Shown piece after piece: positions 1,917-17,694 of a DNA stretch of 64,000 nucleotides (position 1 is its first letter; the number at the start of each line of letters is the position of its first letter). Under the pieces are notes generated by a model. The model saw only the letters and a list, made by a program, of their open reading frames with translations. It was not told where the DNA came from and ran no database searches. The DNA comes from Hyphomonadaceae bacterium (GTDB taxonomy: Bacteria > Pseudomonadota > Alphaproteobacteria > Caulobacterales > Aquidulcibacteraceae). The position numbers and the translations under genes are program-made. Location: positions 1 to 64,000 of the forward strand of contig JALHOC010000007.1 of NCBI GenBank assembly GCA_022843225.1, read 5' to 3'.

Positions 1917-2239
1917 ATTGACGGCACGCGCGGCGTCGCCTTAAGAAAATTCGACCTAGATTCCGGTTGTTAGCGGGCAGTTCGATTCCGGCCCCAGCAC
2001 CAGCACCCCCTCCAGGGACTTCCGCTAACGTCCAAAAATCGTTGTTTTTCAACGCGTGTCGTCCATCAACGTCCAAGGCCGATCGTTCACAGCGACAGCT
2101 TTCTAGTTTGATTTGACGCAAAGTCGGCGGGCAACCGGCCGCGGAACATAAGGCTGATCGTACCCGTTGGCCTGCAACGCGTCTTGAGATCACCACGTCC
2201 GCGCACCCTGACCGTAACACACGCGCCCAGAGGCCCTCT
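1917..2239. other. Intergenic: repeat end and promoter region
   Basis: About 320 bases without a convincing gene. The first 86 belong to the left repeat. The remainder contains related short motifs (CTAACGTCCA, then CATCAACGTCCA) flanking an A/T-rich AAAAATCGTTGTTTTT segment, and a FixK/FNR-like dyad at 2108-2121 ahead of the cytochrome gene. The minus-strand frame across this region encodes low-complexity sequence and looks spurious. Confidence 0.5.
2108..2121 (+). promoter_or_regulatory. FixK/FNR-like box upstream of cytochrome gene
   Basis: TTGATTTGACGCAA fits TTG(A/C)-N6-(T/G)CAA, the FixK-type consensus. Its centre is about 125 nt before the cytochrome start at 2240, further than the other boxes here, so it would need a longer leader. 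Confidence 0.5.
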
Positions 2240-2800
2240 ATGCTAGCCGTAATGCACCGATTGAGAGCGTACCACGCGCTCCTCGCAGTTTTGGCGATGG
2301 CGGCGTACCTGAGCGCTGAATGGGGCAAAATCCACGCCTGGTTCGGATATGGCGTTGCTACGGTGATCGTGCTGCGGCTCGTCCTGGCGTTCTCAGGAGC
2401 TCCCCAGCTGGGCCTTATGCGTTTTTACCCGCATTTCGAGGGGATGAAGCTCGGCAATGCGATGACCCACCCCGCTATAAGCCGAACGCTCTTGCTGGCA
2501 ATTGCGATCAGTTTACTGGGAGTGACGGGAACAGGGATTGCGATGGATCGAGGTCGCGCAATCGGCTTGGCCGGAACGCCATCTGGCGCTTCGTCCGCCA
2601 TCGTTGGCGAAACACGTGACGGCGAATACGACGAAAGCGGACGTGAATCAGGCGAAGACGAAGAAGAAGGCGTCGTTGCGGAAGTCCACGAATTGCTTGG
2701 GAATTTGCTCGTCCTCTTAGTTGGCTTGCATGTTTCCTATCTGCTACTTTTCAAGCGGCCTCTAGCGCGGTTCATGCTGTTTGCCGAGCCGCGCAAATAG
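2240..2800 (+). CDS. Cytochrome b561-like membrane protein
   Basis: A 186-residue membrane protein with four hydrophobic segments (about 10-25, 32-50, 80-100, 148-168) and well-placed histidines: H12 in helix 1, H32 at the start of helix 2 (KIHAWFGY), and H147 and H161 in the last helix region (VHELLGN and GLHVSYLL). This is the pattern of diheme cytochrome b/b561 subunits that pass electrons across the membrane. The loop between helices 3 and 4 is strongly acidic (ESGEDEEEG). Such proteins often partner a periplasmic c-type cytochrome or oxidase; none is adjacent. An FNR/FixK-type box upstream is consistent with use under low oxygen. ATG at 2252 is an alternative start. Confidence 0.75.
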   Translation: MLAVMHRLRAYHALLAVLAMAAYLSAEWGKIHAWFGYGVATVIVLRLVLAFSGAPQLGLMRFYPHFEGMKLGNAMTHPAISRTLLLAIAISLLGVTGTGIAMDRGRAIGLAGTPSGASSAIVGETRDGEYDESGRESGEDEEEGVVAEVHELLGNLLVLLVGLHVSYLLLFKRPLARFMLFAEPRK

Positions 2801-2958
2801 TCACCGGCCAGCGGCAGCGGACATCCAGATCAGCCGTTCGCGCCTATTGCTAAGGTGCGGCGTTAGATCGCCGAAGACGGCCGCACGGCATTGGCGCGCG
2901 CATCGTCGCCACGGCTCTCGTTTGTGGTCATTCGTGATCATCGACGACCGCGCCACAT

Positions 2959-4362
2959 TCACATCTGTGTGCATTCGGTCTCAGACGTCACGCGGATAGC
3001 CGCCTGGACGTTCCTGGGCTGGCGATCCAGCGCGCGTACGACGGCGACGTCGCGCCTGTAGATGTCATCAGCGTAGCGCACCGCTCCTGTGCTATCCGCT
3101 GCCGCTGTTACGTACAGGACGTAGATCGGCAAGGGAGATGCCAAAGCGATGGTCTGGGTCGCACCCGTGTCGATTGCAGCCTCGATCGCGGTTTGGTCCC
3201 ATGCGGTATCAGCGAGCACCGTGGTCGCAAGCGCCACCGGCTCTGCGACGCGAATGCAGCCGTGGCTCAGCGCACGGTCGGCGCGAGCAAACAGGCCCCG
3301 GCTGGGCGTGTCATGCAAAAACACGGCGTACGGGTTCGGCAAATCAAAACGAAGACGCCCCAAGGCGTTGTTGGGACCAGGACGCTGCCGAAGAGTGAAT
3401 GGAAACGGCCATGCACGCCAGTCCACTGCGGCGGGATCGACCGACCGTCCTGAGCTGTCCAGCACATCGAAGCTCTCGCGTGTCACCGCATCAGGATCGC
3501 GGCGGAAGCGGGGTATGAGTTCACCCACCGCAATGCTAGACGGTGGTGTCCAGGCGGGATTGAGCGTGATCGTCTCGATGGCGGCGATGAAGCTGGGCGT
3601 TTGCGTCCTGCGGGCGCCGACGATCGCGACATGGGTGATGCTCACCTCCCCCTCGCGCATCCGGAGCTCAAAAAACGGCGCCAACACCTCGATGCGCCGC
3701 TTCGGGAGGCTCTGCGGCATCCACCGCCATCGCTCAAGGCTGGCGCGCAGTCGCGTCTCGCGCTCACTGACTGTCAGGCCCGTGCTTTCGGCTTCATCAT
3801 TCGGCGACATTCGGACACGCGTCAGCTCGGCCACGAGCGCCAAGTATTCCGGAGAGGTCGGCAAGAGACTGACTAGCGTTTGTGAAACGCCAGCGCCGTT
3901 TCGCAGGGCGCGGCGCAGCATATCAATATCCGGTGCAGGCGGGCGAGCGATCCGCCACTCAGGATCGACGATCGTAGGATCGGTCGCGCCAATGGCGAAC
4001 GCCGTCGCCAAGGCCACAAACAGCTGGTCTGCTTCTTGGTCCAGGCGTCGTGCCGCTTCGGCATCGCGTGGTGAAAGCGGCTCCAAGCGAGCGAGATTAT
4101 CGAGCGCATCCGACGGCCGCGTCAGTCCATGTGCGACGGCCGTGTCAGCCGTGTCGCGCAAGTCGGCCAGCGCCGCGTCGCTCCAGGTCCTCGGCGGTGG
4201 CGGTACGGGTTCGACGATGGGCGGCGCCTCCACGCGGCCGCCACAGCTTGCGACCATCACCAGAACGAGAAGCGCAAACGGGGCAGCCAAGCGCAGCGCG
4301 CGTCTTTGCGTTCGACCGCAACCGTCGTAGGCTTGTGCTTGTGCTGACACGTCGAAATTCAC
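2959..4362 (-). CDS. L,D-transpeptidase (YkuD domain), lipoprotein
   Basis: A long (467-residue) L,D-transpeptidase. The catalytic motif SHGCIRV is complete, with H367 and C369, in a C-terminal YkuD domain that makes 3-3 crosslinks in peptidoglycan or attaches proteins to it. The N-terminal half is helical, as in YcbB/LdtD-type enzymes. The N-terminus has a basic patch (RTQRRALR), a hydrophobic core and a lipobox ending VASC, so it is probably an outer or inner membrane lipoprotein. The called start is a GTG at 4362; it overlaps the 5' end of the divergent DUF882 gene by about 28 bp, so a downstream start is possible. Confidence 0.88.
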   Translation of the reverse strand: MNFDVSAQAQAYDGCGRTQRRALRLAAPFALLVLVMVASCGGRVEAPPIVEPVPPPPRTWSDAALADLRDTADTAVAHGLTRPSDALDNLARLEPLSPRDAEAARRLDQEADQLFVALATAFAIGATDPTIVDPEWRIARPPAPDIDMLRRALRNGAGVSQTLVSLLPTSPEYLALVAELTRVRMSPNDEAESTGLTVSERETRLRASLERWRWMPQSLPKRRIEVLAPFFELRMREGEVSITHVAIVGARRTQTPSFIAAIETITLNPAWTPPSSIAVGELIPRFRRDPDAVTRESFDVLDSSGRSVDPAAVDWRAWPFPFTLRQRPGPNNALGRLRFDLPNPYAVFLHDTPSRGLFARADRALSHGCIRVAEPVALATTVLADTAWDQTAIEAAIDTGATQTIALASPLPIYVLYVTAAADSTGAVRYADDIYRRDVAVVRALDRQPRNVQAAIRVTSETECTQM

Positions 4363-4871
4363 TCCTGGCGGGATTGGGTTTAGCCGCCTCCGCCATTGCT
4401 TCGCCGCAAGCCCATGCTGACGCTGCGGCAGGCCGAACCTTGAGCTTTCATAACTTACACACAGGCGAAGCCCTCGCCATTGAGTATTGGCAAAATGGCG
4501 CCTATGCGCCCGATGCCTGCGCCGCCATCGACCAAATTCTCAGGGATCACCGTACGGGCGAAATTCATGCCATTGACGCGCGCTTGCTCGACTTACTGCA
4601 CGAACTATCGGGCCAGCTTGAGACCCGCGCGCCTTTTCAGGTGATCTCTGGCTATCGCTCGCCGCATACGAACGCGGCTCTCGCGGACGCCAGTTCAGGC
4701 GTAGCACGCGGCAGCCTGCACATGCAGGGCCTAGCCATCGATATCGCAATCGAGGGCGTCCCCACCGCCACGCTTAGAGACGCCGCGCTTAGTCTAGCGC
4801 GCGGTGGCGTCGGCTTTTATCCAAACCCTGGCTTTGTACACGTCGATGTGGGCCGCGTCCGGCGTTGGTGA
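4335..4871 (+). CDS. YcbK/DUF882-type murein peptidase (M15-like), Tat signal
   Basis: About 178 residues. The start region TRRNSLLAGLGLAAS is a twin-arginine export signal with cleavage near QAHA. The mature part matches DUF882/YcbK, relatives of the M15 DD-carboxypeptidase fold: SGYRSPHTN, then SLHMQGLAIDI (His and Asp metal ligands) and FVHVDVG near the end. The role is cell-wall peptide trimming in the periplasm. These genes commonly sit beside an L,D-transpeptidase; here the two are divergent rather than tandem. Starts at GTG 4335 or GTG 4341 both fit; neither has a strong ribosome binding site, and frames further upstream are antisense to the transpeptidase. Confidence 0.82.
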   Translation: MLVLTRRNSLLAGLGLAASAIASPQAHADAAAGRTLSFHNLHTGEALAIEYWQNGAYAPDACAAIDQILRDHRTGEIHAIDARLLDLLHELSGQLETRAPFQVISGYRSPHTNAALADASSGVARGSLHMQGLAIDIAIEGVPTATLRDAALSLARGGVGFYPNPGFVHVDVGRVRRW

Positions 4872-5024
4872 TCCAAAGTGATGCGCGGGGGATCTGACTG
4901 ATACCTGCGCGATAGACCGAACGGAGGTCATGCCACGCCGGATCGGAATCACGACTGGCTTGGCAGCTTGAACGCTGTCGCTGGTAATGCTGCGCTCACT
5001 TAGCCACGATGTCGCCGACATGCG

Positions 5025-5606
5025 TCATTCTTGATGTTGAGGCAGTGCAAGAGGCACATCGGTCGTGGACGCATCACGCTCCGCAGGAGGCGGTGTTACG
5101 TCGTCCACTGGAGCAGGAGCGCACGCGGCGCGCGCCACGCCCTTCAGAAAAGCGCGCCGCACCATCCCGGCGAAAATGGCATCCCGCAATACACGCTCTC
5201 TTCGTTCGGCACCCGAGATCCTCCGTATGATGCTGCGATAGGGCAGTCCAACCATACCGCCTAGTGCGCCAGACATTAGAGCCGAAGCGTCGAAGCTCGA
5301 TTCGCCCTCGTGCTCGTCGGCCTCGTCCAGGTCTGGCCCCAGCACAAGATCGAGCGCCGATATCTCGTTCAGTATCGCGCTGCACTCTGCGTCGCGCGCA
5401 AGTGCATAAGGCGTCTCGGTGGCACGGATCAGAACCTCGGGCGGATTCTCGCGGGTCCAACCGGTGTCCCGTAACGGCTCTCCGGCGGCGTCGCCAACCC
5501 GGTTGTCTCCCGTGCGATGCGCATATGTCGTCGCCGCGCAACCGCTCACTGCCAAGAGGCAGACGCTCAACGCGATCGGCTGGAGGACGCTCACCAGTCG
5601 CTCCAT
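5025..5606 (-). CDS. Hypothetical lipoprotein
   Basis: A 193-residue protein with a lipoprotein signal (hydrophobic stretch then LAVSGC, Cys 23). The mature part has a conserved-looking block with an ILNEISALD helix, a Gly-rich hydrophobic SGALGGMVGLPY segment that could touch a membrane, and a basic helix (RRISGAERRERVLRD). I do not recognise the family. It lies 6 bp after the small lipoprotein gene on the same strand, so the two form an operon that would be driven by the FixK/FNR-like box at 5932. Confidence 0.6.
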   Translation of the reverse strand: MERLVSVLQPIALSVCLLAVSGCAATTYAHRTGDNRVGDAAGEPLRDTGWTRENPPEVLIRATETPYALARDAECSAILNEISALDLVLGPDLDEADEHEGESSFDASALMSGALGGMVGLPYRSIIRRISGAERRERVLRDAIFAGMVRRAFLKGVARAACAPAPVDDVTPPPAERDASTTDVPLALPQHQE

Positions 5607-5612
5607 TAGCCG

Positions 5613-5876
5613 TTAGGGTTGGCTATTTGGGTTGTCGTCGGTTGCGTCATGGATCGCATCGGCAGGATCATGGTTCTCGCGCCCGGTCGCTTGATCGATC
5701 GCCTCCCCTGCATTCTCAAGGGCGCCGTCGCCGCGATTGACCTCGCCTTGCGTGGCTTCTTCGATAGCGGAATCCATGTTCTCGCCAGCCTTCTCAGAAC
5801 TGCCTTCCTGGCTGCAACCGCCAAGTCCGGCAAATCCCAGCACGACCAGTACGGCGAACATTGTCCGGTTTCGCAT
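5613..5876 (-). CDS. Small lipoprotein, acidic
   Basis: An 87-residue protein: short basic N-terminus (MRNR), hydrophobic core, lipobox LGGC (Cys 21), then a hydrophilic, acidic, Asn/Asp-rich tail with no predicted fold (GENMDSAIEEATQGE and similar amphipathic helices). It resembles entericidin-like or stress-related small lipoproteins only in layout. A FixK/FNR-like dyad centred 62.5 nt upstream of the start makes it the first gene of a probable low-oxygen-induced operon with the next lipoprotein. Confidence 0.6.
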   Translation of the reverse strand: MRNRTMFAVLVVLGFAGLGGCSQEGSSEKAGENMDSAIEEATQGEVNRGDGALENAGEAIDQATGRENHDPADAIHDATDDNPNSQP

Positions 5877-5931
5877 TGGATTCTCCTATTCATCCGAGCA
5901 AAAACGTTAGTGCGATCCCCGCAAATACTGC

Positions 5932-5945
5932 TTGATCTTGCGCAA
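5932..5945 (-). promoter_or_regulatory. FixK/FNR-like box upstream of lipoprotein operon
   Basis: TTGATCTTGCGCAA fits TTGA-N6-GCAA. Its centre is 62.5 nt from the start codon at 5876. On the minus strand a TAACGT at about 5903-5908 lies where a -10 element of a class II activated promoter would fall. Confidence 0.6.
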
Positions 5946-6004
5946 CCTCGGTCGACCAAATCTCGAAAGGCGCGATTGATGGCCGGCACCGCACTCAATT
6001 TTGC

Positions 6005-6412
6005 TCATTCGGCCTGCAACGCCGCGAGCACATCAGATCCGCCTCGACCAACCAGTTCCTTGTGCACTTCTCCGACAAGTATCGCTTCGAGTTGCATGTC
6101 GTAATGCCGGCGCATCTCGCCCAAGGTCCGCGGTGGCGCAATAACAACGAGGTGCTTAATCTCCCCTTTTTTTGCCCCTTGATTAAGCCAGCCGACCACT
6201 GCTGCGGCGTGCGCATCCTCATCCAAGAGATGTCCGGGGTTGGCCGAACTCGTGATATGACGAGCGCCCGACCCTCTATTGTGCTCATCAAGATGAGGCG
6301 CATCCATTCGCGAAAGCTCAGCCTCGGCTTCGTTGCCGATGTTGCGATAAAGTTTGAGCTTTTCGCCATCGACAACGACGACAACCGTCCCATGAGGCAA
6401 CAGCATGCGCAT
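6005..6412 (-). CDS. Host attachment family protein
   Basis: A 135-residue soluble protein matching the layout of the 'protein required for attachment to host cells' family: HGTVVVVVDGEKLKLYRN at the N-terminus, a variable Asp/His-rich middle (DAPHLDEHNRGSG), a HLLDEDAHAAAVVGWLN helix and the VVIAPPRTLGEMR motif. Despite the name (from plant-associated bacteria) members are widespread and their core resembles bacterial release-factor-like/eRF1-like domains; the function is unsettled. It is often found among stress and low-oxygen genes. A dyad TTGC-N5-TCAA lies 64 nt upstream, one base short of the consensus spacing. Confidence 0.8.
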   Translation of the reverse strand: MRMLLPHGTVVVVVDGEKLKLYRNIGNEAEAELSRMDAPHLDEHNRGSGARHITSSANPGHLLDEDAHAAAVVGWLNQGAKKGEIKHLVVIAPPRTLGEMRRHYDMQLEAILVGEVHKELVGRGGSDVLAALQAE

Positions 6413-6436
6413 CTCCTAACTTCAAATCCTGGATGC

Positions 6437-6465
6437 GCGGCGGCGGTCAACTGGACCGCCGCCGC
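6437..6465. terminator. Strong hairpin between two minus-strand units
   Basis: A perfect 12-bp GC stem (GCGGCGGCGGTC and its complement) with a 5-base loop lies between the broken gene at 6505-6763 and the host-attachment gene. There is no T-run, so it is either a terminator-like or an RNA-stabilising hairpin. Confidence 0.45.
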
Positions 6466-6504
6466 CTAATTGCGTCATTCAAGAAACGACGGCGCGACAC
6501 GCAT

Positions 6505-6763
6505 TCAATCGCCGACGACCCAGACGCCATTGGGGGGGCTGGCACGCATGACCTTGGGTTTGCCGCGAGCGACGGTCGACCGTCGTTGTCTGGCGATAGG
6601 TCGCACACCGGAAGCCATCCGGATCCTCATAATACTGATCGACATGGAAACGGCCCGAATTGCCGTTGCTCTGATTGCGTCAATCGTAATCGGTATTCGG
6701 ATTCGGGCGGTTCGCATTTGAGCCATCATAACATTGTTTGCCCAATGATAGATTGATCCGCAT
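6505..6763 (-). pseudogene. Decayed gene with DPDGFRC..NGVWVV motif
   Basis: Joining two frames gives a coherent sequence: QYYEDPDGFRCATYRQTTTV, then HACQPP, then after a one-base shift NGVWVVGD and a stop. The shift falls exactly in a run of seven G (6532-6538, plus strand); six would restore the frame. This Asp-Pro-Asp-Gly-x-x-Cys / Gly-x-Ala-Cys / Gly-x-Trp layout is common at the C-terminus of small surface or periplasmic proteins in alphaproteobacteria. A TGA at 6680-6682 interrupts the upstream part as well, so both ends look broken. The nominal ATG overlaps the FixK/FNR-like box, so the true start is unclear. Confidence 0.5.
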
Positions 6764-6766: not shown

Positions 6767-6818
6767 GCGCTGGCGCCGCCCTGGGCATACCGTTCCACTA
6801 CTCAAAAAGTAGACAAAC

Positions 6819-7121
6819 ATGGCTCACGCCGCGAAACAACTCATGACCGAATTGTCCGATGACTACGAAGTCGTCGTGAAAGCACTCGGCCGTATGACCA
6901 GGAACATTGGCGAGCACGGTGACGACGCCGTGGTGGAGTCGGCTCAAACCTTCGTTCATTCCGCGTCCGCTCTCGCAGATAAGATCAAGACGCAATCCAA
7001 GAAGCTCGCGAAGACAGCCGGTGAAGAAATGCGCGAGCATCCGATCGCCGCAGCGGCGCTGGCGGCGGCAGCTGTTGGTTTGCTGGGCTACGCCGTGAGC
7101 CAATCCGGAAAACGCCAATAG
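6819..7121 (+). CDS. ElaB/YqjD/DUF883-like membrane-anchored protein
   Basis: A 100-residue protein: a long amphipathic helical region (about 1-72) followed by EMREHPIAAAALAAAAVGLLGY, a C-terminal membrane anchor, and a basic tail (SGKRQ). This is the layout of ElaB/YqjD-type proteins, C-tail-anchored inner membrane proteins; YqjD of E. coli binds ribosomes in stationary phase. A perfect FNR-type box lies 59.5 nt upstream, suggesting induction at low oxygen. A small hairpin (CTACT-CAAAA-AGTAG, 6798-6812) lies just before the start, where no clear ribosome binding site is seen. Confidence 0.72.
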   Translation: MAHAAKQLMTELSDDYEVVVKALGRMTRNIGEHGDDAVVESAQTFVHSASALADKIKTQSKKLAKTAGEEMREHPIAAAALAAAAVGLLGYAVSQSGKRQ

Positions 7122-7339: not shown

Positions 7340-7771
7340 ATGCTTCTGGTTTTTCTTACGTTGTGCCTTGGCGCTTGCGGCACGATTTCGCGGGAATTTG
7401 ACACTGCGTACCGCCACTCGGACGCGGTCGCCGCTTTGCCTGCCGGCGTGCAAATCCTGGCCCTGCAGGCGCCTCAAGATTTGGCGCTCGCTGAGCGCGT
7501 TCCGGCGCAACCACCGTCAGAAAGTCACGCCATCCTCGCGCGCTCGGGAGGTGGCGCGAACGGCGCGTATGGCGCTGGCGTTATCACGCTTCGTGCTCGG
7601 CGTGGGGTCGATGCGTTGGCGGCGGGGTCGCGCATAAAAAGGTCATTGGGCGTCTGCTTGGCGAGTCGGCTCGAAGTCGCCGTTTCTGTCCTTCAAGGCA
7701 GCAATTACGGTTACTTGACCACGCACCCATCCTCGAAGGCGCCATCTCCGCGCCCAGCGCTGACGCCTTGA
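7340..7771 (+). pseudogene. Truncated patatin-like lipoprotein
   Basis: The first 80 codons are convincing: a lipoprotein signal (LLVFLTLCLGAC), then a region ending ILARSGGGANGAYGAGVI, the Gly-rich oxyanion motif at the start of patatin-type phospholipases. After that the frame becomes basic and Ser-rich and loses all family resemblance; the GxSxG nucleophile and the Asp of the catalytic dyad are absent. Normal members are several hundred residues long. It is a remnant truncated soon after the first motif, probably during the rearrangement that placed the next promoter (7768) at its 3' end. Confidence 0.65.
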
Positions 7772-7836: not shown

Positions 7837-8289
7837 ATGAGCCAAGCGGTGATCGATTTCTGCGAGGGACTGAAAACGACGCTGCTCGCCCTGGAGGACC
7901 GCATCGGCAAAGCCCAAGCGAGCCTTGCGAGCGGGGCGGTTCAGGTCAGCGGCGAAGCCAAGAAGCATCTGGACGAAGCTGCTGCGCAACTCGACAAGTT
8001 CAAGGTCCATGCCGGCCTGATGGCGCAGGCCATTCGCGCCGATTTGCCCGAGCAAACCGCCGAGATGAAGGAGAAGCTCCAGGAATTCGGGCTTGAGGCG
8101 CAAGTGGCGATGCGCCACGCTGTGGTGTTCTTGGCTGAGACGGCGTCTAAGGGCGCTGAAGGTGCTGCCGCAATGCTCAAGGAAGGCGCGTCCAAGGCAA
8201 AAACCCTGGCTGAGGATTTGCGGCACGACACGGCGGTGACGGTTGCGACGCCCGACAAGCAACAGCCCGGCGTAGCCACGCCCAACTAA
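7837..8289 (+). CDS. Phasin-like helical protein
   Basis: A 150-residue, almost entirely helical protein rich in Ala, Glu, Lys and Gln, with heptad-like segments (KKHLDEAAAQLDKF, AEMKEKLQEFG, TASKGAEGAAAMLKEG) and a disordered Pro-containing tail. There is no signal peptide. It resembles phasins and other granule- or membrane-surface coiled-coil proteins in composition only; I cannot name a family firmly. A good ribosome binding site (AGGAG, 7825-7829) precedes the ATG. Its stop is 2 bp from the start of the cation ATPase, so the two are co-transcribed, probably from the FixK/FNR-like box at 7768. Confidence 0.6.
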   Translation: MSQAVIDFCEGLKTTLLALEDRIGKAQASLASGAVQVSGEAKKHLDEAAAQLDKFKVHAGLMAQAIRADLPEQTAEMKEKLQEFGLEAQVAMRHAVVFLAETASKGAEGAAAMLKEGASKAKTLAEDLRHDTAVTVATPDKQQPGVATPN

Positions 8290-8291
8290 TC

Positions 8292-11222
8292 ATGACCACA
8301 GCCCGGGCCGCGCCCGCATGGGAACGTGTGAGCTTCGACCATCGGCTGCAACCGCATGTGCGCGTGCACCACGCCATTGGCGGACGCACGCGGCTGCGAC
8401 TTGCGCCGCTTGCAGGCCGCGCCGATCTGCTGGGCGCTTTGGCGCGCCGCGTCGCCGCGCGCCAAGGCGTTGTCAGCGTGCGCGAGAACGCAGTCTCGGG
8501 CTCGCTGCTCATCGATCACGACAAACGTCTGACCTCCGAAACCATCGCGGCGGTAGTGCGCGATCTCTGGCGCGCTGGATTGACGGGCCCGGTTAAGCCC
8601 GCGGCCGCCGACTCCGTCGAATCTACCTGGCACGCGCTGCCCGCCTCCATGGTGCTCGATGCCTTCAAGGCAAAGCAACCATTGACCCATTCCGAGGCGC
8701 ATGGGCGGGTTACCCGCATCGGCGAAAACCGGCTCTCGGAACCGGCCCCAACACCGCTTGTGCACTTGGTCGCCGCGCAGCTCAAATCCGCCCCCGTCGC
8801 CTTGCTCAGCGGGTCGGCGGCGCTTTCGCTGGCGACCGGCGGACTTATCGACGCCGCGCTGACGCTCGGCGTCATTGCGCTCAACGCTGGGATCGGCGTG
8901 TCCACAGAGAGCTGGACGCGCCGCCTCATTCGTTCGCTGTCGCGCCCGTCCGATCCCGACGCGCTTGTGTTGCGCGACGGAATTGAGACCCACGTGCCCG
9001 CGTCGCGGCTTGCTCCAGGCGACTGGATCATTCTCAAACCTGGCGTGGCCGCGCCCGCCGACGGCCGCCTGATCAGCGCCGAGGGGCTGATGGTGGATGA
9101 GGCCTCGCTCACCGGGGAGAGCCACCCGGTCGAAAAGCACGCCGAGGCCGTCGTATCGCTCACCGCTCCGCTCAGCGCGCGGCGCACGATGATCCATCGC
9201 GGCGGCGTCGTCACCACTGGCTCTGGCGTCGCGGTGGTGACCGCCACCGGTGAGGCGACTGAAATCGGCCGCGTCCGCACTTTGCTGCAAAGCACGCGCG
9301 CGCCCGTGCCGCCGATGGAGCGGGCGCTCGATCGCCTCGGACTGCGCCTGACCATCGCCTGCCTTGGCGCTTCTTCGATCCTTGCAATCCTGCTGCTGAT
9401 GCGCGGCGAGCGCGTGTCGAAGGTGGCCAAGAGCGCGGTGGCGCTCGCGGTATCGGCCATTCCTGAGGGGTTGCCGGCCCTGGCCGCCTCCACCAAGGCG
9501 CTCGCCGCGCGCGCCATGTCGCGCGAGGGCGCCTATGTGCGCAATGTCAACGTGCTTGAAACGGCCGCGAGCATCGATGTCTTGTGCCTCGACAAGACCG
9601 GCACACTCACGCAAAATCGTATGGAAGCGGCGATTGTGCGCACCCTGGGCGCTGAACACCGACCAGCGACCGGCGCGCCGATTCCAAGCCTTGTGCGTCT
9701 GATCGCCAGGATCGCGGCGCTCTGCAACGACGCTGAACTATCGAACGCTTCAGACCCATCGTCAGGATCGGGCACCGAGCGTGCATTGCTGCATTTTTCC
9801 CGCGACGCGGGATTTGATGTCGAATCGCTGCGCGCGGCGCACCAACGGCGCGGCGTCCTGCCGCGCACGCAGGCGCGTCTCTACATGGCGACAGAGCACG
9901 CCGCGCGCGGCGGGCCTCTGCTTGCTGTTAAGGGCGCGCCGCACCAGGTGCTGGCGTTGTGCTCCACTGTTCGTTCCAGCGCGCGGGCGCTGCCGCTCGA
10001 TGAGACGATGCGCACAGCGATCCGAGCGCAGAATGAGTATCTGGCGAGCGAAGGGCTGCGTGTGCTGGGCTTTGCACGCGGGCGCGGGCGTACCCTTGCG
10101 GAGGGCGAACCGGAAGCGCTCGAATGGCTGGGCCTGGTCGGCTTGCGCGATCCGTTGCGCCCCGGCGCGGACGCCGCGATCCGCACCTTTCAGCGCGCGG
10201 GCATCCGCACCATCATACTCACCGGCGACCAGGCCGGCACGGCGCGCAAGCTTGCGTCTGACCTCGGCATGGCGCCCGACGGCGCCGTGAATGTCGTGGA
10301 CGCGAGCGAGCTGCGCAACGCGACGCCAGAACACATGGCGGAACTCGCCAATAGCGCCGAGGTGTTCGCCCGCGTCAGCCCCGCCGACAAGCTCGCGATC
10401 ATCAAGGCGCTGCAAGCTCAGGGCCATGTCGTGGCCATGACCGGGGACGGGGTCAATGACGGCCCCGCTTTGCGCGCCGCCGATGTCGGCATCGCCATGG
10501 GCAAGTCCGGCGCCGATGTGGCGCGCGATGTTGCCGACATTGTCATCGCCGACGACGATCTCGCCAGCCTGGCGACTGCCTTGTCGCGCGGGCGGGCCGC
10601 GGACGACAATCTCCGCCGCGCCGTGCGTTTTCTGCTCTCCACCAATGCGAGCGAAGTGGTGCTTCTGCTCGCCGAAGCGCTGCAGGGCCCCGACGCGCTC
10701 GAAACACCCGCACAACTCTTCTGGCTCAATCTCATGACAGACGTTTTCCCGGCATTGGGTTTAGCCATGGCGCGGCCTGCCGCCGACATTCTCGACCGGC
10801 CGCCGCGCCCGGCGGAGGAAGATGTCTTCGGTCGTCGCGAAGCGGCCGCCATCGCTGCGGACGCTTTGCGCATCGCAGCGCCAGCGATCATGACTCATTT
10901 TTTTGCGACGCTGCGGCACGGTTCGGGGCCGCGCACGCGCGGCTTGACGTTCCTGGCGCTCGCCAGTCGTCAATTGATGCAAGCGTTGCGGCTGCGTCCG
11001 GGGCGACCGGCGACAGACATTCTGGATCGCCCTATTGAGCTCGGCGTCGCCGCCGCGTCCGTCTTGCTTGCTGCGCCCTTTGCGCTGCCCCCGTTGCGCC
11101 GCGTGCTGCGGATTTCCAGCCCGCGCCCGATCGAGGCCGCTTTCATCATCGGATTAAGCATCGCGCCCTTGGCGCTGCGCTTCATCGCCCCGCAAGGGTC
11201 GGTTGGCACGCCGAAAATCTAG
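8292..11222 (+). CDS. P2-type cation-transporting ATPase with N-terminal HMA-like domain
   Basis: A 976-residue P-type ATPase with all core motifs: actuator TGES (274-277), PEGLP in M4 (391-395), phosphorylation DKTGTLT (D434) and hinge TGDGVND (717-723). PEGLP and a NLMTDVFPALGLAM segment in M6 resemble Ca2+/Mn2+ (P2) pumps rather than the CPC-type heavy-metal P1B group. The N-terminal 100 residues are unusual: GGRTRLRLAPL and a GVVSVRENAVSGSLLI segment look like a ferredoxin-fold HMA-type domain without a CxxC motif. The likely role is export or compartment transfer of a divalent cation across the inner membrane; the ion is not predictable. It follows the phasin-like gene in an operon and overlaps the convergent DUF5132-like gene by 4 bp. 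Confidence 0.9.
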   Translation: MTTARAAPAWERVSFDHRLQPHVRVHHAIGGRTRLRLAPLAGRADLLGALARRVAARQGVVSVRENAVSGSLLIDHDKRLTSETIAAVVRDLWRAGLTGPVKPAAADSVESTWHALPASMVLDAFKAKQPLTHSEAHGRVTRIGENRLSEPAPTPLVHLVAAQLKSAPVALLSGSAALSLATGGLIDAALTLGVIALNAGIGVSTESWTRRLIRSLSRPSDPDALVLRDGIETHVPASRLAPGDWIILKPGVAAPADGRLISAEGLMVDEASLTGESHPVEKHAEAVVSLTAPLSARRTMIHRGGVVTTGSGVAVVTATGEATEIGRVRTLLQSTRAPVPPMERALDRLGLRLTIACLGASSILAILLLMRGERVSKVAKSAVALAVSAIPEGLPALAASTKALAARAMSREGAYVRNVNVLETAASIDVLCLDKTGTLTQNRMEAAIVRTLGAEHRPATGAPIPSLVRLIARIAALCNDAELSNASDPSSGSGTERALLHFSRDAGFDVESLRAAHQRRGVLPRTQARLYMATEHAARGGPLLAVKGAPHQVLALCSTVRSSARALPLDETMRTAIRAQNEYLASEGLRVLGFARGRGRTLAEGEPEALEWLGLVGLRDPLRPGADAAIRTFQRAGIRTIILTGDQAGTARKLASDLGMAPDGAVNVVDASELRNATPEHMAELANSAEVFARVSPADKLAIIKALQAQGHVVAMTGDGVNDGPALRAADVGIAMGKSGADVARDVADIVIADDDLASLATALSRGRAADDNLRRAVRFLLSTNASEVVLLLAEALQGPDALETPAQLFWLNLMTDVFPALGLAMARPAADILDRPPRPAEEDVFGRREAAAIAADALRIAAPAIMTHFFATLRHGSGPRTRGLTFLALASRQLMQALRLRPGRPATDILDRPIELGVAAASVLLAAPFALPPLRRVLRISSPRPIEAAFIIGLSIAPLALRFIAPQGSVGTPKI

Positions 11223-11503
11223 CTGCTGTGCGCTTCTTTAATCGGGGGGTCTGCGTCGGGCGCCGACGCTGGCCGTTCGCGCGTCAGTTCCGCTTGCACT
11301 TCAGCGACCAGGTCTTCCACATCCTCGGTGAATTCGGCGGCTGCCGCGCGAGCGCGCGCATAGGCGCCCATGCCGCGCTTCAAGCTTTCGCGCACAAAAG
11401 GCCTGGCTGCGCGCAATATCTTCGGCGCCGCCACGGCCAAGCCGATCACGGCGGCGCCGCCACCTATCAGCAGCGCCGCTCCGAGAATTCGCGATCCGAT
11501 CAT
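11219..11503 (-). CDS. DUF5132-like small membrane protein
   Basis: A 94-residue protein with one N-terminal hydrophobic helix (GAALLIGGGAAVIGLAVAAP), then a basic segment (RPFVRESLKRGM) and an amphipathic acidic helix (FTEDVEDLVAEVQAEL). This is the layout of DUF5132-type proteins, which frequently neighbour P-type ATPases. I place the start at ATG 11503 rather than 11527 because GGCGGAAG lies just upstream and because the FNR-like box is then 58.5 nt away, matching three other units here. The stop overlaps the end of the ATPase gene. Confidence 0.6.
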   Translation of the reverse strand: MIGSRILGAALLIGGGAAVIGLAVAAPKILRAARPFVRESLKRGMGAYARARAAAAEFTEDVEDLVAEVQAELTRERPASAPDADPPIKEAHSS

Positions 11504-11554: not shown

Positions 11555-11568
11555 TTGTTTTAGATCAA
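11555..11568 (-). promoter_or_regulatory. FNR-like box between DUF5132-like and DUF445 genes
   Basis: TTGTTTTAGATCAA has a perfect right half (ATCAA) and one mismatch in the left (TTGTT). It lies between divergent genes, 58.5 nt from the start at 11503 and about 77 nt from the start at 11639. Confidence 0.5.
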
Positions 11569-11638: not shown

Positions 11639-12895
11639 ATGACCGCAATCGAACTTGTCGGCGCCAAGACGCCGCCTTCTCTGGGCGCCATGCGCATGAT
11701 CGCTGGCGCGCTGCTGCTGTTGATGGCGGCGCTCTATCTGCTGGCGGTGCTAAATCAGACCCAGGCGCCCGGCTGGGGCTATTTGCGCGCGTTCGCTGAA
11801 GCGGCAATGGTTGGCGGGCTCGCCGACTGGTTCGCGGTGACGGCGATCTTTCGCCATCCGCTTGGGCTTCCCATACCGCACACGGCGGTCATCCCGCGCA
11901 ACCAAGAGCGCATTGCTGGCGCGCTGGGGGAGTTCGTCACCGTCAATTTCCTTGCGCCCGAGATCGTGCGCGAACGCCTTCAGAAGGAAGATCTGGCGGG
12001 TGGGCTCGGCCGCCAACTCGCCGAACCCGCTGCCGCGCAACGCATCGCCGGCGGCATTATGAACGCGCTGCCCTCGCTGGCGGATCTTCTGGATGACGAA
12101 GTTGTCGCCGATTTCCTGCGCCGTCAGATTGGCGATCTCAGCCGCGACGAGCGCCTCACCTCCGCCATCGGGCGCGGACTCTCCCTCCTCACCGCGCACG
12201 GCAGGCATCAGCCCGTGCTAGACGCCGCGCTTAGCGAAGGCTGGCGGGCGCTTGAGGAGCACGAGCCTGCGATCCGAGCCCAGGTGCGCGCGCAAACGTC
12301 TTGGATTTGGCGCGTCATCGCACTCGACGCCCGCGCCTCCGATGCGCTGATCTCGGCGATTGAGGAGACGTTGAAAGCTATTTCGCGCGATCAAGCTCAT
12401 CCCGCCAGACAGCGCATTACCGAACTATTGCAGAAGCTATCCGCCGATCTGCAAAGCTCCCCGGAATTACGCTCACAAGTCGAGAGGATCGTCGCCGACC
12501 TTCTGGCCCATCCCACGGTCGGCGCCTATTTCGCCGACCTCTGGCGCAGCTTGCGCGCCGCCATGCGCACCGCCGCCGAGACGCCTGACGCTACGGCTCG
12601 CACAGCGCTCGCCGACGCCATCGCCCGCTTCGGTGCGGCGCTCGCCAATGATCCCCAGGTGCAAGCTTCGCTCAACAAACGCCTGCGCGACCTGCTCACG
12701 GAGATCGCTGGCCGCCACGGACGCGATATCGGCGCCCTGATCACCGAGACCATACGCGGCTGGGACACCAAGACCGTCGTTGACAAGCTCGAGCAGAATG
12801 TCGGCCCCGACCTGCAATATATCCGCATCAACGGCACGCTCATCGGCGGCCTGATCGGCCTATCCATCCATCAAGTGACGCAGCTGCTGACTTGA
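11639..12895 (+). CDS. DUF445 family membrane protein
   Basis: A 418-residue DUF445 protein. After a hydrophobic helix (MIAGALLLLMAALYLLAVL, about 20-38) comes the hallmark segment AFAEAAMVGGLADWFAVTAIFRHPLGLPIPHTAVIP, read here in pieces, then a long helical domain and a C-terminal hydrophobic GGLIGLSIHQVTQLL anchor. The family is widespread in bacteria (YjiN type) and its biochemical function is unknown. A strong ribosome binding site (AAGGATG) precedes the ATG. An FNR-like box lies in the divergent promoter region it shares with the DUF5132-like gene. Confidence 0.85.
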   Translation: MTAIELVGAKTPPSLGAMRMIAGALLLLMAALYLLAVLNQTQAPGWGYLRAFAEAAMVGGLADWFAVTAIFRHPLGLPIPHTAVIPRNQERIAGALGEFVTVNFLAPEIVRERLQKEDLAGGLGRQLAEPAAAQRIAGGIMNALPSLADLLDDEVVADFLRRQIGDLSRDERLTSAIGRGLSLLTAHGRHQPVLDAALSEGWRALEEHEPAIRAQVRAQTSWIWRVIALDARASDALISAIEETLKAISRDQAHPARQRITELLQKLSADLQSSPELRSQVERIVADLLAHPTVGAYFADLWRSLRAAMRTAAETPDATARTALADAIARFGAALANDPQVQASLNKRLRDLLTEIAGRHGRDIGALITETIRGWDTKTVVDKLEQNVGPDLQYIRINGTLIGGLIGLSIHQVTQLLT

Positions 12896-12980
12896 TCGGC
12901 AAAAGCGGGCGTCCGCGCACGTGTGGCGACGACCAGTCGGTTGCGGCCAAGAGCTGCGCGTATGGTCGCCTGCGCCGCGC

Positions 12981-13550
12981 CTAGATCTTCTCCTCGCGCA
13001 CTGAGCGCACCTCCACATTCGCGTCCGCGAGGCGTCTGTACAATTGTCGCCTTTGCGCCAGCGGCCACCAATCGTAGAGGAAGATCTCGATCGGACGCCA
13101 GTTGGCGACCCAGCCGAGGATAATGAGCCCCTCGGCAAAGAAGCTTGAGATATCACCAGGCCCGAACACACCGCTCACCAATCTCCCACCCAACACGCAA
13201 CCGCCCAACACCGCCAAACCGATAAGCAGCGACAGGCGTCCAATGCGAAACATCTCGTGGAGATCACCTCTCATGCGCTCAGCGCGATAGGTGAAGTGAC
13301 GCCGCAGTGCGTCCGCTAGTCCCGCCGCGGGGGCGCTCTGCTCCTCGCCCTGCGACAGATGAACGACGATGCGGAATGCCTGGCCTCTCGGCAGCTCTCG
13401 CGCCCAGCCGACTATGAAATCTTCTGCACTTCTGGCGAGATCGCGCGTCGGGATCGGAAATGGATCGAATGGATCGAATAGTTGGCTGAGCTCCTCAAGC
13501 CGAAGCTCGATTGAGGCGCCGCCCTGAAGGTCAACAACTGCCTCGGTCAT
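12981..13550 (-). CDS. Hypothetical two-helix membrane protein
   Basis: A 189-residue protein. A soluble N-terminal part of about 105 residues (with DPFDPFPIPTRDL and FRIVVHLS) is followed by a basic stretch, two hydrophobic segments (about 112-128 and 140-153) and a C-terminal NWRPIEIFLYDWWPLAQRRQLYRRL block, a sequence style seen in small conserved proteins encoded beside cation ATPases. I do not know a name for the family. It is the last gene of the ATPase-nuclease cluster, 129 bp after the nuclease stop. A short frame ending at 13547 overlaps its ATG (ATGA) and might couple its translation, but that frame has no good start. Confidence 0.65.
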   Translation of the reverse strand: MTEAVVDLQGGASIELRLEELSQLFDPFDPFPIPTRDLARSAEDFIVGWARELPRGQAFRIVVHLSQGEEQSAPAAGLADALRRHFTYRAERMRGDLHEMFRIGRLSLLIGLAVLGGCVLGGRLVSGVFGPGDISSFFAEGLIILGWVANWRPIEIFLYDWWPLAQRRQLYRRLADANVEVRSVREEKI

Positions 13551-13679
13551 TGCTCATCCCCGTTCAGGCTGCTCTCACAGGCACCCAGGCGACCCATGAG
13601 CCACGCTAGGATGCGATCAATCTCGCCAGCTGCGTCAGCAGCAGGAGTCGTCGCGCGCGGAGCGGATGCACATCCCCGT

Positions 13680-15044
13680 TCATGTGAGATCGTAGCTGAA
13701 GAGCGGATCGACCACATTTGCCCTCCAGTTGAGCTCGCGCTCGACACGCGTGCGCAAGACCTCCGCAGCTGCGGGCTCACCATGGACTATGAACAGACGG
13801 CGGGGCGCCTGCTCAAAGCCTGCGAGCCATCGCATGATTTCATCAACGTCGGCGTGAGCGGAGAGCTGAGGCAAACTGGCGATCTCAGCGCGCACCGGAA
13901 TCCAGTCGCCGAACATTTTGAGTTCCGTCTCCCCCGCCAGCAGACGCGCGCCGCGCGTACCCAGAGCTTGGTAGCCCGCAAACAGGATGGTGCTTCGAGG
14001 ATCCGGCGCAAAGGTACGAATATGGTGCACCACCCGTCCTCCGGTCGCCATGCCGCTGCCTGCAATCACGACCTTGGGCATGGGGTTGGATGTGATTGCC
14101 TTGGAGGCTTCCACATCACGCGTGTAGGCGGCGACTGAACAGGACCCGTCGATGGCTTCTGCGTCGAGCTTGTGATCTTCAGGATAGGCGCGCAGCAACT
14201 CGGAGGCGCTGATCGCCATAGGGCTGTCCAGAAACACTGGCGTCACCCCCAATCGTCCCGCGCGCTTGAGCAGCCACAAATGATAAAGCAGACGCTGCAC
14301 ACGCCCCACGGCGAATGCGGGAATAACCACGGTGCCACCGCGCTCCACCGTGCGTTCGATGATGTCGCCCAGCTCTGCCATGGGATCTGTTTTGGCATGC
14401 GTTCGATCGCCGTAGGTGGATTCAACGACCACATAATCCGCCTGTGTGACGGGCTCGGGATCGCACATGACCGCATCGTTGTACCGGCCGAGATCGCCGG
14501 AGAACGCCAGCGTCATCCCGCCGATCTTCACCTCCGCGGTGGCAGCGCCAAGAATATGCCCCGCGCGCCGGAACTTCAGACCACAATCGCGAGCGATCTC
14601 GAATTCTGAGTCAAAAGGCATTTGCTTCAAGTGCTTCAGCGCCCGCTCTGCATCGCGCATTGTGTAAAGCGGCAACGCCGGCTGGTGCTTGGAGAAGCCC
14701 TTGCGATTGGCGTAGTCGGCATCCTTCTCGGCGATCTGGGCGCTGTCCTTCAGGAGAATGTCGCAAAGAGCTGCGGTCGCATCGGTGCAATGGGCAACGC
14801 CGCGAAACCCGTCGCGCACCAGCTTCGGCAGATAGCCGCTGTGATCCAGATGTGCGTGCGTGAGGACGACCGCATCGATCGAGTCCGGCGGCACGGCGAG
14901 CGGCGCCCAATTGCGCTCACGCAGGTGCTTCAACCCCTGAAAAAGACCACAATCGACCAGGACGCGCGTGCCATCGGCATCGATCAAGTGCTTCGATCCG
15001 GTGACGGTCTCGGCTCCGCCAAGACTTCGCAATGTCAGCTTCAC
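13680..15044 (-). CDS. Metallo-beta-lactamase/beta-CASP nuclease
   Basis: A 454-residue protein of the RNA-processing MBL family (CPSF73/YSH1-like). Motif HAHLDH (H63, H65, D67, H68) forms the dinuclear zinc site; later features include FSGDLGR, the beta-CASP segment SGMATGGRVVHHI, and SAHAD near the C-terminus. It probably acts as an exo- or endoribonuclease in the cytoplasm. I choose GTG 15044: GGGGGAGG lies just upstream and the GTGA overlaps the TGA of the ATPase gene, indicating translational coupling; ATG 15059 is the alternative. Linkage of such nucleases to P-type ATPases and stress genes recurs in proteobacteria, but the reason is unknown. Confidence 0.88.
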   Translation of the reverse strand: MKLTLRSLGGAETVTGSKHLIDADGTRVLVDCGLFQGLKHLRERNWAPLAVPPDSIDAVVLTHAHLDHSGYLPKLVRDGFRGVAHCTDATAALCDILLKDSAQIAEKDADYANRKGFSKHQPALPLYTMRDAERALKHLKQMPFDSEFEIARDCGLKFRRAGHILGAATAEVKIGGMTLAFSGDLGRYNDAVMCDPEPVTQADYVVVESTYGDRTHAKTDPMAELGDIIERTVERGGTVVIPAFAVGRVQRLLYHLWLLKRAGRLGVTPVFLDSPMAISASELLRAYPEDHKLDAEAIDGSCSVAAYTRDVEASKAITSNPMPKVVIAGSGMATGGRVVHHIRTFAPDPRSTILFAGYQALGTRGARLLAGETELKMFGDWIPVRAEIASLPQLSAHADVDEIMRWLAGFEQAPRRLFIVHGEPAAAEVLRTRVERELNWRANVVDPLFSYDLT

Positions 15045-17548
15045 GCGCGCCTCCCCCATGCCCCGAAGCGCAACAATGGCCAATGCCAGGCGCCGCTGAC
15101 CAGACCAACGCCAATGGCCAACAGCACATACTGGGCGCTCGGCGCCGCCAAGTGAAATATCCCCGCCAGCCAGTGGCTGGCGACTACCATCGCCAGCGCG
15201 ACCATCAGCACCCCGGCGATGATCCAGTAAATGCGCCGCTCCGGATCGAGGATGCGTCCTTCTGCGCCGACCGCGTCCACCAGCGCCAGAGTAAGATTGG
15301 CGACAACGAGCGCAATGAAAGCCGCCCCGCGCGCCTGCTCGACGGTCAGAGTAACCACAGCGTAGACGTAGAGCGCCAGGACGGCGCCTAAAATGACGAG
15401 ACCCTGCAAAGCAGCGGTGAGCAATTGCCTCGGGCCAAACAGCGCTTCGTCGGGCTTACGCGGCGGGCGTTTCATGGTACCTCGGCTGCTGCGTTCGCCT
15501 TCAAAGGCGAGCGCACAAGTCGGGTCAATCGCGAGTTCCAGTAAAACCACGTGCATCGGAAACAAAAGCTGCGGCAATCCAAGCAGGATCGGCAAAAGCG
15601 CGAGACCGGCAATCGGGACATGGATCGCCGTGATATAGATTAAGGCCTTGCGCAGATTGGCGAAGATGCGCCGGCCCATGCGCACGCCACCGACGATCGA
15701 CGCAAAGCCGTCATCGAGAAGCACAAGATCAGCGGCTTCGCGTGCGACATCGGTGCCTTTTCGGCCCATCGCGATCCCGATATGGGCCGCCTCAAGTGCA
15801 GGCGCGTCGTTTACGCCGTCGCCTGTCATCGCCACAACTTCGCCATTGGCTCTGAGCGCCTCGACGATGAGCAGTTTTTGATCGGGAGCGATGCGCGCGA
15901 AAACGCGGCCCTGCCGCATGTGCTGACGCAAGGAGGGGAACGGAAGCTCAGCCAACGCAGCGCCCGTTGTTACTCCGCTTGCGACGTCGATACCGGCGGC
16001 AGACGCGATCGCCAGCGCGGTCGCGGGATGATCGCCGGTGACCATGATGACTTGAATGCCGGCGCTGCGCGCCTCTTCCAATGCACCGGGCACATCTTCA
16101 CGCAGCGGGTCGAGAAATCCGATGAGACCTACAAACTCGAACGAAGCGCTCTCGGGGGTCTCCGGAAACGTGGTCGCGCCCCGCCACCTGGCGACACCGA
16201 GCACGCGCAAGCCATCCTTCGCGAAAGCTCCGATAATCTCATGCAGTCGGGTGATCGTCCCATCGTCGAGGCCGCACAAACGAAACACGGCTTCCGGCGC
16301 GCCCTTCGCGGCCGCCACGCGCTCCTCGCCATCACGCCAAAGCTGCGTCACCGCCATGGTTTCCGGGCGAAGCGGCCAGCTTCGCTCGATCTCGCCCACC
16401 GCGACAGGCAATCCGATCGCCGTCGCCGCTTCATGAATGCCGCGATCCATCGGATCTATTGGCCGCACACTTGACGCGAGGGCGGCGCAAGCGACCAGCG
16501 CGCGCCCCTCCTCTCCCATCGCCGCGTCTACATCGGCAACGCCGCTTTTTGTCCAAACACGAACGAGCCGCATGTGATTTTGGGTCAAGGTGCCGGTCTT
16601 ATCGACACACAAAACCGTCGCCCCGCCCAGCGTCTCGATGACAGCGCTACGGCGCACGAGCACTTTGTGGGTCGCGAGCCGCCAAGCGCCCAACGCCAAA
16701 AAGACCGCGAGCACCATCGGAAACTCTTCCGGCACCAACGCAATCGCCGTCGTTATTCCGGCAAGCGCGCCGGCGACCCAGTCACCGCGGAAAACACCAA
16801 AGGCGAGCACCACCAAGCCACAGAGAGCGAGCGCAAAGAGACCCAATAAGCCAACGAGTTTGCCTGTGGTGCGCTGCAACGGCGTAGGTTGCTGATCGAT
16901 CTCGGCGAGCGAGCGGCCAATGCGTCCAAGCGCCGAGCGCACGCCTGTATGGGTCACCCGCGCTACGGCTTGGCCACGCACCACCAGCGTTCCTGAGAAT
17001 AAAAGCGGCGACGCTTCGTGCGTAGGCGCGGAGACTTCGGCAAAGACCTCGCCAGCAAGGGCCAAGCGCTTGGAGACTGGGGCGGACTCTCCGGTCAGAG
17101 ACGATTCATCCACGCTCAGAATGTCGCCTGCGATCAAGACGGCGTCGGCGCAGACCCGATCGCCTTCACCGACGAGCATAATGTCGCCGGGCGCAATTTC
17201 GCGTGACGCCATCTTTCGCTGAACGCCATCGCGCACGATACGGGCGTGAGGCTGCGCCAAGTCGCGCAGTGCCGACAGCGCCCGTTCACTGCGCGCCTCT
17301 TGTGCGACCACAATCGCAATCGCCGCGCATGCGCCGAGCAGCAGAAAGACGCCTTCGCCAAGACTACCGAGAAAGAGATAGAGCCCCGCCGCTGCGAGCA
17401 GCAACATGAACATCGGCTCACGCAAGGTCTCGGCAGCAATCTTGGCGAGCCCGCGACGCCCGGGGCTCGGCAGTTCGTTTGCGCCCCATTGGGCAAGCGA
17501 TTGCTGGGCTTGCGCCTCGCTTAGGCCCGTGAGGCTGTCTTCGGTCAC
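15041..17548 (-). CDS. P2-type cation-transporting ATPase
   Basis: About 835 residues, a second P-type ATPase without the HMA-like extension of the first. It begins TGLSEAQAQQSLAQWGANEL, the usual cation-ATPase N-terminal domain, and has TGES, PEEFP in M4 (in place of PEGLP), DKTGTLTQN (D316 from this start) and a MTGDGVNDAPAL hinge. The PEEFP variant suggests a different ion preference from the first pump. The open frame extends to 17635; I use GTG 17548, where family similarity begins, but upstream starts cannot be excluded. It is translationally coupled to the MBL nuclease. A FixK/FNR-like box lies in the divergent promoter shared with the ABC operon. Confidence 0.88.
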   Translation of the reverse strand: MTEDSLTGLSEAQAQQSLAQWGANELPSPGRRGLAKIAAETLREPMFMLLLAAAGLYLFLGSLGEGVFLLLGACAAIAIVVAQEARSERALSALRDLAQPHARIVRDGVQRKMASREIAPGDIMLVGEGDRVCADAVLIAGDILSVDESSLTGESAPVSKRLALAGEVFAEVSAPTHEASPLLFSGTLVVRGQAVARVTHTGVRSALGRIGRSLAEIDQQPTPLQRTTGKLVGLLGLFALALCGLVVLAFGVFRGDWVAGALAGITTAIALVPEEFPMVLAVFLALGAWRLATHKVLVRRSAVIETLGGATVLCVDKTGTLTQNHMRLVRVWTKSGVADVDAAMGEEGRALVACAALASSVRPIDPMDRGIHEAATAIGLPVAVGEIERSWPLRPETMAVTQLWRDGEERVAAAKGAPEAVFRLCGLDDGTITRLHEIIGAFAKDGLRVLGVARWRGATTFPETPESASFEFVGLIGFLDPLREDVPGALEEARSAGIQVIMVTGDHPATALAIASAAGIDVASGVTTGAALAELPFPSLRQHMRQGRVFARIAPDQKLLIVEALRANGEVVAMTGDGVNDAPALEAAHIGIAMGRKGTDVAREAADLVLLDDGFASIVGGVRMGRRIFANLRKALIYITAIHVPIAGLALLPILLGLPQLLFPMHVVLLELAIDPTCALAFEGERSSRGTMKRPPRKPDEALFGPRQLLTAALQGLVILGAVLALYVYAVVTLTVEQARGAAFIALVVANLTLALVDAVGAEGRILDPERRIYWIIAGVLMVALAMVVASHWLAGIFHLAAPSAQYVLLAIGVGLVSGAWHWPLLRFGAWGRRA

Positions 17549-17680
17549 CGGACAGATTATCCGCACTCTCCTGCGATCGCGACTGCGCAGGGCCATCCCG
17601 GAAGGGCCCACACAAATGTTCCCTATCATCGGCAATCGCGAAAGGGATAGACATCAGAGCAGAGCGCCAAGCAATGTCAC

Positions 17681-17694
17681 TTGAGCCCGATCAA
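17681..17694 (+). promoter_or_regulatory. FixK/FNR-like box in divergent ATPase/ABC promoter
   Basis: TTGAGCCCGATCAA fits TTGA-N6-TCAA. It lies between the minus-strand ATPase and the plus-strand ABC gene; its centre is 39.5 nt from the ABC ATG and 52-139 nt from possible ATPase starts, so it could serve either or both. Confidence 0.55.

Follow-up and report, generated by a model that had tools for sequence, protein, structure and literature searches.

The window analysed here, positions 1-64000 of contig C7 in a draft genome of 2.86 Mb (2,863,944 bases; 117 contigs, 99.5% complete), contains between two direct repeats a block of about 21 kb in which a varied set of genes is interspersed with palindromic boxes of the FixK/FNR type. 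The genes encode a cytochrome, an L,D-transpeptidase, several small proteins, two cation-transporting P-type ATPases (PATP1 and PATP2), DUF5132 and DUF445 proteins, a beta-CASP protein that resembles an RNase, and a three-part exporter (Table 1). Gene calls were made with a simple codon model, and single starts may be off. The family concerned, Hyphomonadaceae, is put in the Caulobacterales by some schemes. In the NCBI taxonomy it belongs to the Alphaproteobacteria, order Hyphomonadales. A scan of genome contigs gave one matching locus, on a contig of a Hyphomonadaceae metagenome-assembled genome. For comparison we used the homologous clusters of ten same-genus genomes, with their genes matched to those of the window; these relatives, given G numbers below where they have to be told apart, were the best PATP1 matches among 61 genomes searched and form a non-random sample.

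Table 1. Features of the island and its borders, with the receiver gene of the regulator locus. Box distances run from box centre to start codon in nucleotides (nt); matrix ranks refer to a scan of the 64 kb; a dot means that no strand is assigned; ORF, open reading frame; aa, amino acids.
Feature	Position	Strand	Remarks
Left direct repeat	1556..1994	.	439 nt ungapped; with gaps allowed, about 1541-2002 at 96%
AlpA-family ORF, open, in left repeat	1560-1772	-	Pfam
tRNA-Phe 3'-end-like stretch, left repeat	1980-2002		match to G012 tRNA-Phe
FixK box TTGATTTGACGCAA	2108..2121	+	125.5 nt 5' of cytochrome b561 gene; rank 4
Cytochrome b561-type membrane protein	2240..2800	+	PF01292
L,D-transpeptidase (YkuD, Scaffold)	2959..4362	-	homologues in G008 and G011
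Weak box-like site TTGCTTCGCCGCAA	4396..4409	.	40.5 nt before GTG 4362; rank 6 (14.2)
Small lipoprotein-like ORF	5613..5876	-	family matches below cut-off only
FixK box TTGATCTTGCGCAA	5932..5945	-	62.5 nt to ATG 5876; rank 7 (13.8)
FixK box TTGATCCGCATCAA	6753..6766	+	59.5 nt to ATG; same sequence 5' of G008 orthologue
100-aa protein, hydrophobic C-terminus	6819..7121	+	80% identical in G008
FixK box TTGATCCGGCGCAA	7768..7781	+	62.5 nt to ATG of 150-aa gene; rank 1
150-aa protein	7837..8289	+	predicted helical, low confidence (mean predicted local distance difference test score 58.8)
PATP1, 976-aa cation-transporting P-type ATPase	8292..11222	+	above the Pfam cut-off; below cut-off for HMA_2 and the NCBIfam Ca-type models
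DUF5132 protein	11219..11503	-	family match
FixK box TTGTTTTAGATCAA	11555..11568	.	common to divergent DUF5132 (58.5 nt, ATG 11503) and DUF445 (77.5 nt); rank 3
DUF445 membrane protein	11639..12895	+	family match
Beta-CASP metallo-beta-lactamase-fold, RNase-like protein	13680..15059	-	sequence match
PATP2, second cation-transporting P-type ATPase	15041..17548	-	divergent from exporter
FixK box TTGAGCCCGATCAA	17681..17694	.	39.5 nt to ABC exporter; rank 2
Exporter: ABC ATPase, FtsX-type permease, HlyD-type adaptor	17727..22029	+	family matches
Right direct repeat	22369..22806 (22355-22813 with gaps)	.	97% identical to left; AlpA frame interrupted by a stop
FixT-like single-domain receiver gene	contig C23, L129 14293-14754		behind fixJ; box TTGAGGCAAGTCAA 62.5 nt upstream

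A sequence-only reading of the window had listed five dyads fitting TTGMN6KCAA, at 2108, 5932, 6753, 7768 and 17681, and a sixth with one mismatch at 11555. All are present as it described them, and the distances that it gave from box centre to ATG for the boxes at 5932, 6753, 7768 and 11555 are exact. The common spacing of 58-63 nt that it proposed holds for these four, but not for the box before the cytochrome gene or the one before the exporter. The motif class is also more frequent than its chance estimate of one per 40 kb: the genome has 243 sites, or one per 11.8 kb (the reversed-pattern control gives 120, one per 23.9 kb), and the interval 1558-22813 holds eight matches rather than five. 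Two of the three matches missing from that list, 4480 and 5037, lie within called genes, and the third, at 4396, stands in or beside the start of an M15 peptidase gene and may be coding. Comparison of site density with the genome background, a check named beforehand, shows the island to be enriched (8 observed versus 1.8 expected; binomial P 5e-4). For the stricter form TTGATN5KCAA, searched on either strand, 5 sites are observed in the island against 0.47 expected (P 1e-4). Genome-wide this form occurs at 63 distinct sites (38 forward and 28 reverse, three counted twice), which are intergenic in 5 of 5 cases inside the island versus 15 of 58 outside (Fisher P 0.002). Since motif and interval had both been picked by the reader of the sequence, these enrichment P values are post hoc. 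The earlier observation of no such motif in core intergenic regions stands: outside 1558-22813 (42.7 kb) only 29403 and 55595 match, both within called genes. The box at 6753 is one of just three perfect TTGATN4ATCAA sites in the genome.

Stronger evidence comes from the relatives, where the box can be sought free of the window's own sites, although with a definition that was the earlier one plus the textbook one. We took the 120 nt 5' of orthologues at at least 45% identity to the 150-aa, DUF5132, DUF445, ABC ATPase, PATP2, 100-aa and transpeptidase genes, merged the regions (n=27), and scored as a box any TTG-N8-CAA that agrees with TTGAT-N4-ATCAA in 8 or more of 10 positions. Such a box is found in 24 of the 27 regions, whereas 19 permuted half-sites each hit none or one of them, seven other spacer lengths each hit none, and the box occurs in only 16 of 202 other upstream regions of the relatives. 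Adding the window brings the count to 28 of 32, and no permuted motif then exceeds 2. Upstream of the 150-aa gene the half-sites are 100% identical in the 8 genomes (of 11) that have a box, against about 30% identity in the flanks, with flanks and spacer together near random; all 8 carry the variant TTGAT-N4-CGCAA. The box shared by the divergent DUF5132/DUF445 pair is present in all nine genomes that have the pair, and a box precedes the ABC ATPase gene in seven of seven; the distance is 39.5 nt in five of them, 49.5 nt in one and 28.5 nt in another. Boxes also stand before the transpeptidase homologues (46-48% identity) of G008 and G011, at 63.5 and 61.5 nt. A weight matrix built from 25 relatives' sites, with the window left out, was then scanned over the 64 kb and placed 7768, 17681, 11555, 2108 and 6753 at the top, followed by 4396 and 5932, so that the six sites listed earlier take ranks 1-5 and 7.

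These results bear on the simplest alternative, that the pattern is a product of chance, a degenerate motif having been combined with an interval picked after the data had been seen. In its favour, the motif class is common in the genome and three of the matches in the island have no clear promoter role. However, orthologous promoters in the relatives carry boxes and the permuted and shifted controls do not; for the main boxes, chance and over-fitting are rejected on the basis of the reversed pattern, the permuted halves, the wrong spacers and the window-free matrix. Chance is in practice excluded for the boxes at 7768, 11555, 17681 and, through a single relative, 6753, and is possible for those at 2108 and 5932. 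As an account of the whole we consider it very improbable.

The same genome encodes a regulator suited to such boxes. On contig C23, fixK is divergent from fixL, which is followed by fixJ and a gene for a single-domain receiver. The predicted FixK matches FixK2 (4i2o; E 4e-52), the FixL PAS domain matches best the FixL heme-PAS structures 8js5 and 1dp6 (E 2e-49 or better) and is predicted to be of the heme-binding type, and FixJ matches 5xso (E 5e-53); all three proteins are also identified by Pfam. FixK orthologues occur in all 11 genomes searched, the G026 copy being split in two pieces. Boxes are also found in this genome upstream of ccoN (90.5 nt), ompW (67.5 nt) and a Usp gene (56.5 nt), in addition to the receiver gene. 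Pfam identifies the ccoN product as COX1; the ccoOQP-like genes that follow ccoN were assigned by eye. In C. crescentus, ompW, ccoN and fixT are named as FixK-activated (PMC3751524). Among the 15 TTGATN5KCAA sites that lie between genes elsewhere in the genome, others are without a known FixK link or lie too near to or far from a start. At G000:C8:18427, a perfect box, TTGATTCCGATCAA, separates two divergent genes, one for an AurF-like protein at 63.5 nt and the other for a lipoprotein-like hydrolase at 48.5 nt; both are candidates for further FixK targets. In G006, a similar FixT-like arrangement lies about 10 kb from its cluster.

Real boxes might instead be read by another regulator of the Crp/FNR type, such as an Fe-S FNR or a nitric oxide-sensing Dnr/NnrR protein, in which case the signal would not be oxygen sensed by FixL. 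Dnr-type proteins recognise sites similar to those of FixK. Very similar sites are likewise recognised by FnrN and FixK (PMC4999443). Against this, a cNMP_binding search of the genome gave four matches. Two fall in long frames (603 and 571 aa) whose architecture, judged by sequence, is a different one, and a third is a Crp-type protein with an R..NR recognition helix. Only the FixK of contig C23, beside fixLJ, has the E..SR motif in its recognition helix, and its single cysteine means that it has no FNR cluster. None of the four matches is an FNR protein with an N-terminal cysteine cluster, and the four offer no candidate for an FNR or nitric oxide regulator. For the Caulobacterales studied in PMC4999443, that paper reports FixK only. 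The regulator is thus likely to be FixK rather than FNR, and we regard a different Crp/FNR-type reader as improbable.

Taken together, the boxes, their conservation and the regulator genes make it highly probable that the locus is a mobile-type island in which many gene units are targets of the host FixLJ-FixK cascade, and much of the 21-kb block is probably switched on together at low oxygen. The earlier proposal of a low-oxygen FixK/FNR regulon is, on these grounds, strongly supported for the main units; not every gene in the island has a box. Several observations weigh against our interpretation. In the window, four genes (transpeptidase, M15, Host_attach and 12981) lack a box of their own that scores at least 8. 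The start of PATP2 is uncertain (GTG 17548 or TTG 17635), and this gene and the RNase-like gene are 139.5 nt or, with the second start, 52.5 nt away from the shared box at 17681. The 150-aa orthologues of G008 and G011 lack a box scoring 8 and have an extra small gene upstream, and that of G026 has a degraded box only. The best matrix site outside the island, at 55595 and within a gene, scores 13.7, barely below 5932 (13.8); as even the weakest training site (13.1) scores less than 55595, little is proved by the two lowest island scores by themselves. Moreover, no orthologous promoter for the boxes at 2108 and 5932 was found in the fetched relatives, so that motif score is what speaks for these two.

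The regulon might also be smaller than the island. Under this alternative only some units belong to it, and the left-end genes for the cytochrome, lipoprotein, peptidase and transpeptidase are passengers whose sites arose by chance or have decayed. The missing orthologous promoters and the long distance from 2108 to its gene fit such an account, as do the lower G+C content (60-62%) and a gene remnant at the left end. On the other hand, 2108 stands fourth in an independent matrix scan and the transpeptidase homologues of G008 and G011 have boxes. We consider the restricted regulon to be a serious possibility, though one that falls clearly short of the reading with many FixK-controlled units. 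The gene at 5025, second behind 5613, probably shares the 5932 box.

The borders of the island are marked by the direct repeats, of which the genome has two copies. The terminal stretch of each resembles the 3' end of the tRNA-Phe of G012. The DNA downstream of the left repeat resembles the DNA behind tRNA-Phe in G012, so part of the left end may be old chromosome rather than element. The assembly gave no full tRNA-Phe match, scans for tRNAs and Rfam families gave no hit within the island, and no integrase was recognised among the genes called between the repeats (by eye, and by Pfam for 18 ORFs). Just outside, at 1400-1519, a stretch of 107-120 nt recurs in relatives at 79-87% identity, with three copies in G008 and four in G023; ORFs that look integrase-like by eye accompany it in three of the four loci looked at. 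The identities of single genes point to a mixed ancestry. The core gene ThrS is 93% identical to its G026 counterpart, 87% to that of G011, 86% to that of G008 and 80% to that of G010, whereas PATP1 is 88% identical to that of G010 and 71% to those of G026 and G008, and the FtsX permease is 94% identical to that of G008, 93% to that of G011 and 69% to that of G010. Both conflict with ThrS, which suggests two or more modules with separate histories and a mosaic island of exchanged modules that each have a box.

Some of the genes concerned belong to families with little or no description. The 150-aa gene, which PATP1 follows after 2 nt, lies directly 5' of a P-type ATPase gene in each of the ten clusters fetched from the genus, and the N-terminus of its product is almost invariant; among 288 other genomes in a class-wide sample that had no other member of the genus, the protein has no match (1 of 289, its own). 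Its former label 'phasin-like' finds no family match over cut-off in Pfam or NCBIfam, and neither does 'ElaB-like' for the 100-aa protein. A remnant of a patatin-like phospholipase gene (7340-7768; 66% over 88 aa to a full gene in G008) ends where the 7768 box begins. On the minus strand at about 13590-13690 there is a deletion scar where the beginning of a deoA-like nucleoside phosphorylase gene runs into the last part of a phosphoribosyl pyrophosphate (PRPP) synthetase gene; G011 has both genes at this place.

A mechanism consistent with these data can be outlined. As oxygen falls, FixL would phosphorylate FixJ, which would raise FixK, and FixK dimers would bind boxes like TTGAT-N4-ATCAA, turning on the island promoters and, elsewhere in the genome, ccoN, ompW and the fixT-like gene, which would act in feedback. 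A box distance of 58-63 nt would fit class II geometry, with a centre near -41.5 and a leader of 17-21 nt. The exporter box at 39.5 nt would predict an almost leaderless message; no ribosome-binding site is evident before the exporter start, and from this too a leaderless message is predicted. The products (pumps, a beta-CASP RNase-like protein, DUF445, an exporter and small envelope or helical proteins) may act in survival under low energy and not in respiration. More tentatively, and with the balance slightly against it, we propose a plug-in low-oxygen regulon: cassettes of box plus gene would be exchanged within the genus and assembled into mosaic islands, and box variants conserved with each cassette would set its own oxygen threshold. 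Such islands would not have to bring a regulator along, since the host FixLJ-FixK system would at once read the FixK box that comes with each cassette. In this relative of Caulobacter, the probable FixK regulon appears to reach past respiration into ion pumping, RNA turnover and export, by way of modules that seem exchangeable, and the system offers a test of how horizontally acquired genes join an existing oxygen circuit. Probable low-oxygen functions can also be given to uncharacterised families: DUF445, DUF5132 and the 150-aa protein that is paired with a P-type ATPase.

An island wired by FixK in this way was not among the matches listed in the open-licence PMC literature, and the closest known system is the FixK regulon of Caulobacter crescentus and the Caulobacterales, which likewise has FixL, FixJ, FixK and a FixT-like receiver, with boxes at ccoN, ompW and the fixT-like gene (PMC3751524, PMC4999443). 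The receiver found here has a single cysteine and so, unlike Caulobacter FixT, is without the 4-Cys motif. In PMC4999443, Caulobacterales FixK targets are described as limited to redox processes, and by that account the pumps, RNase-like protein, exporter and small proteins of the island would be an extension. The lxa cluster of Burkholderia cenocepacia, a low-oxygen cluster, includes Usp genes, a metallo-beta-lactamase-superfamily gene numbered next to that for a zinc alcohol dehydrogenase, and a phosphofructokinase gene (PMC6127331). Loci of this type bring together stress genes, Usp and Hsp20 among them, that are activated at low oxygen. The relatives resemble it in part, and in gene lists only: Usp genes occur in G011 and G022, and in G022 a metallo-beta-lactamase gene, whose product is 36% identical to that of the window, stands beside zinc alcohol dehydrogenase and PfkB genes. 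Unlike lxa, the window's island has no recognised Usp gene. In Bradyrhizobium diazoefficiens at 0.5% O2, bll3115-3117 (metallo-beta-lactamase-fold hydrolase, PRPP synthetase and thymidine phosphorylase) are induced, as are Host_attach, phosphoenolpyruvate synthase, Usp and HlyD adaptor genes (PMC6515984). The metallo-beta-lactamase, phosphorylase and PRPP synthetase genes that stand in a row in G011 are similar by name. In that study bll3115-3117 are not marked as direct FixK2 targets, whereas the Host_attach gene bll5315 is. Set beside these systems, the regulon described here is of a known kind and its content is unusual.

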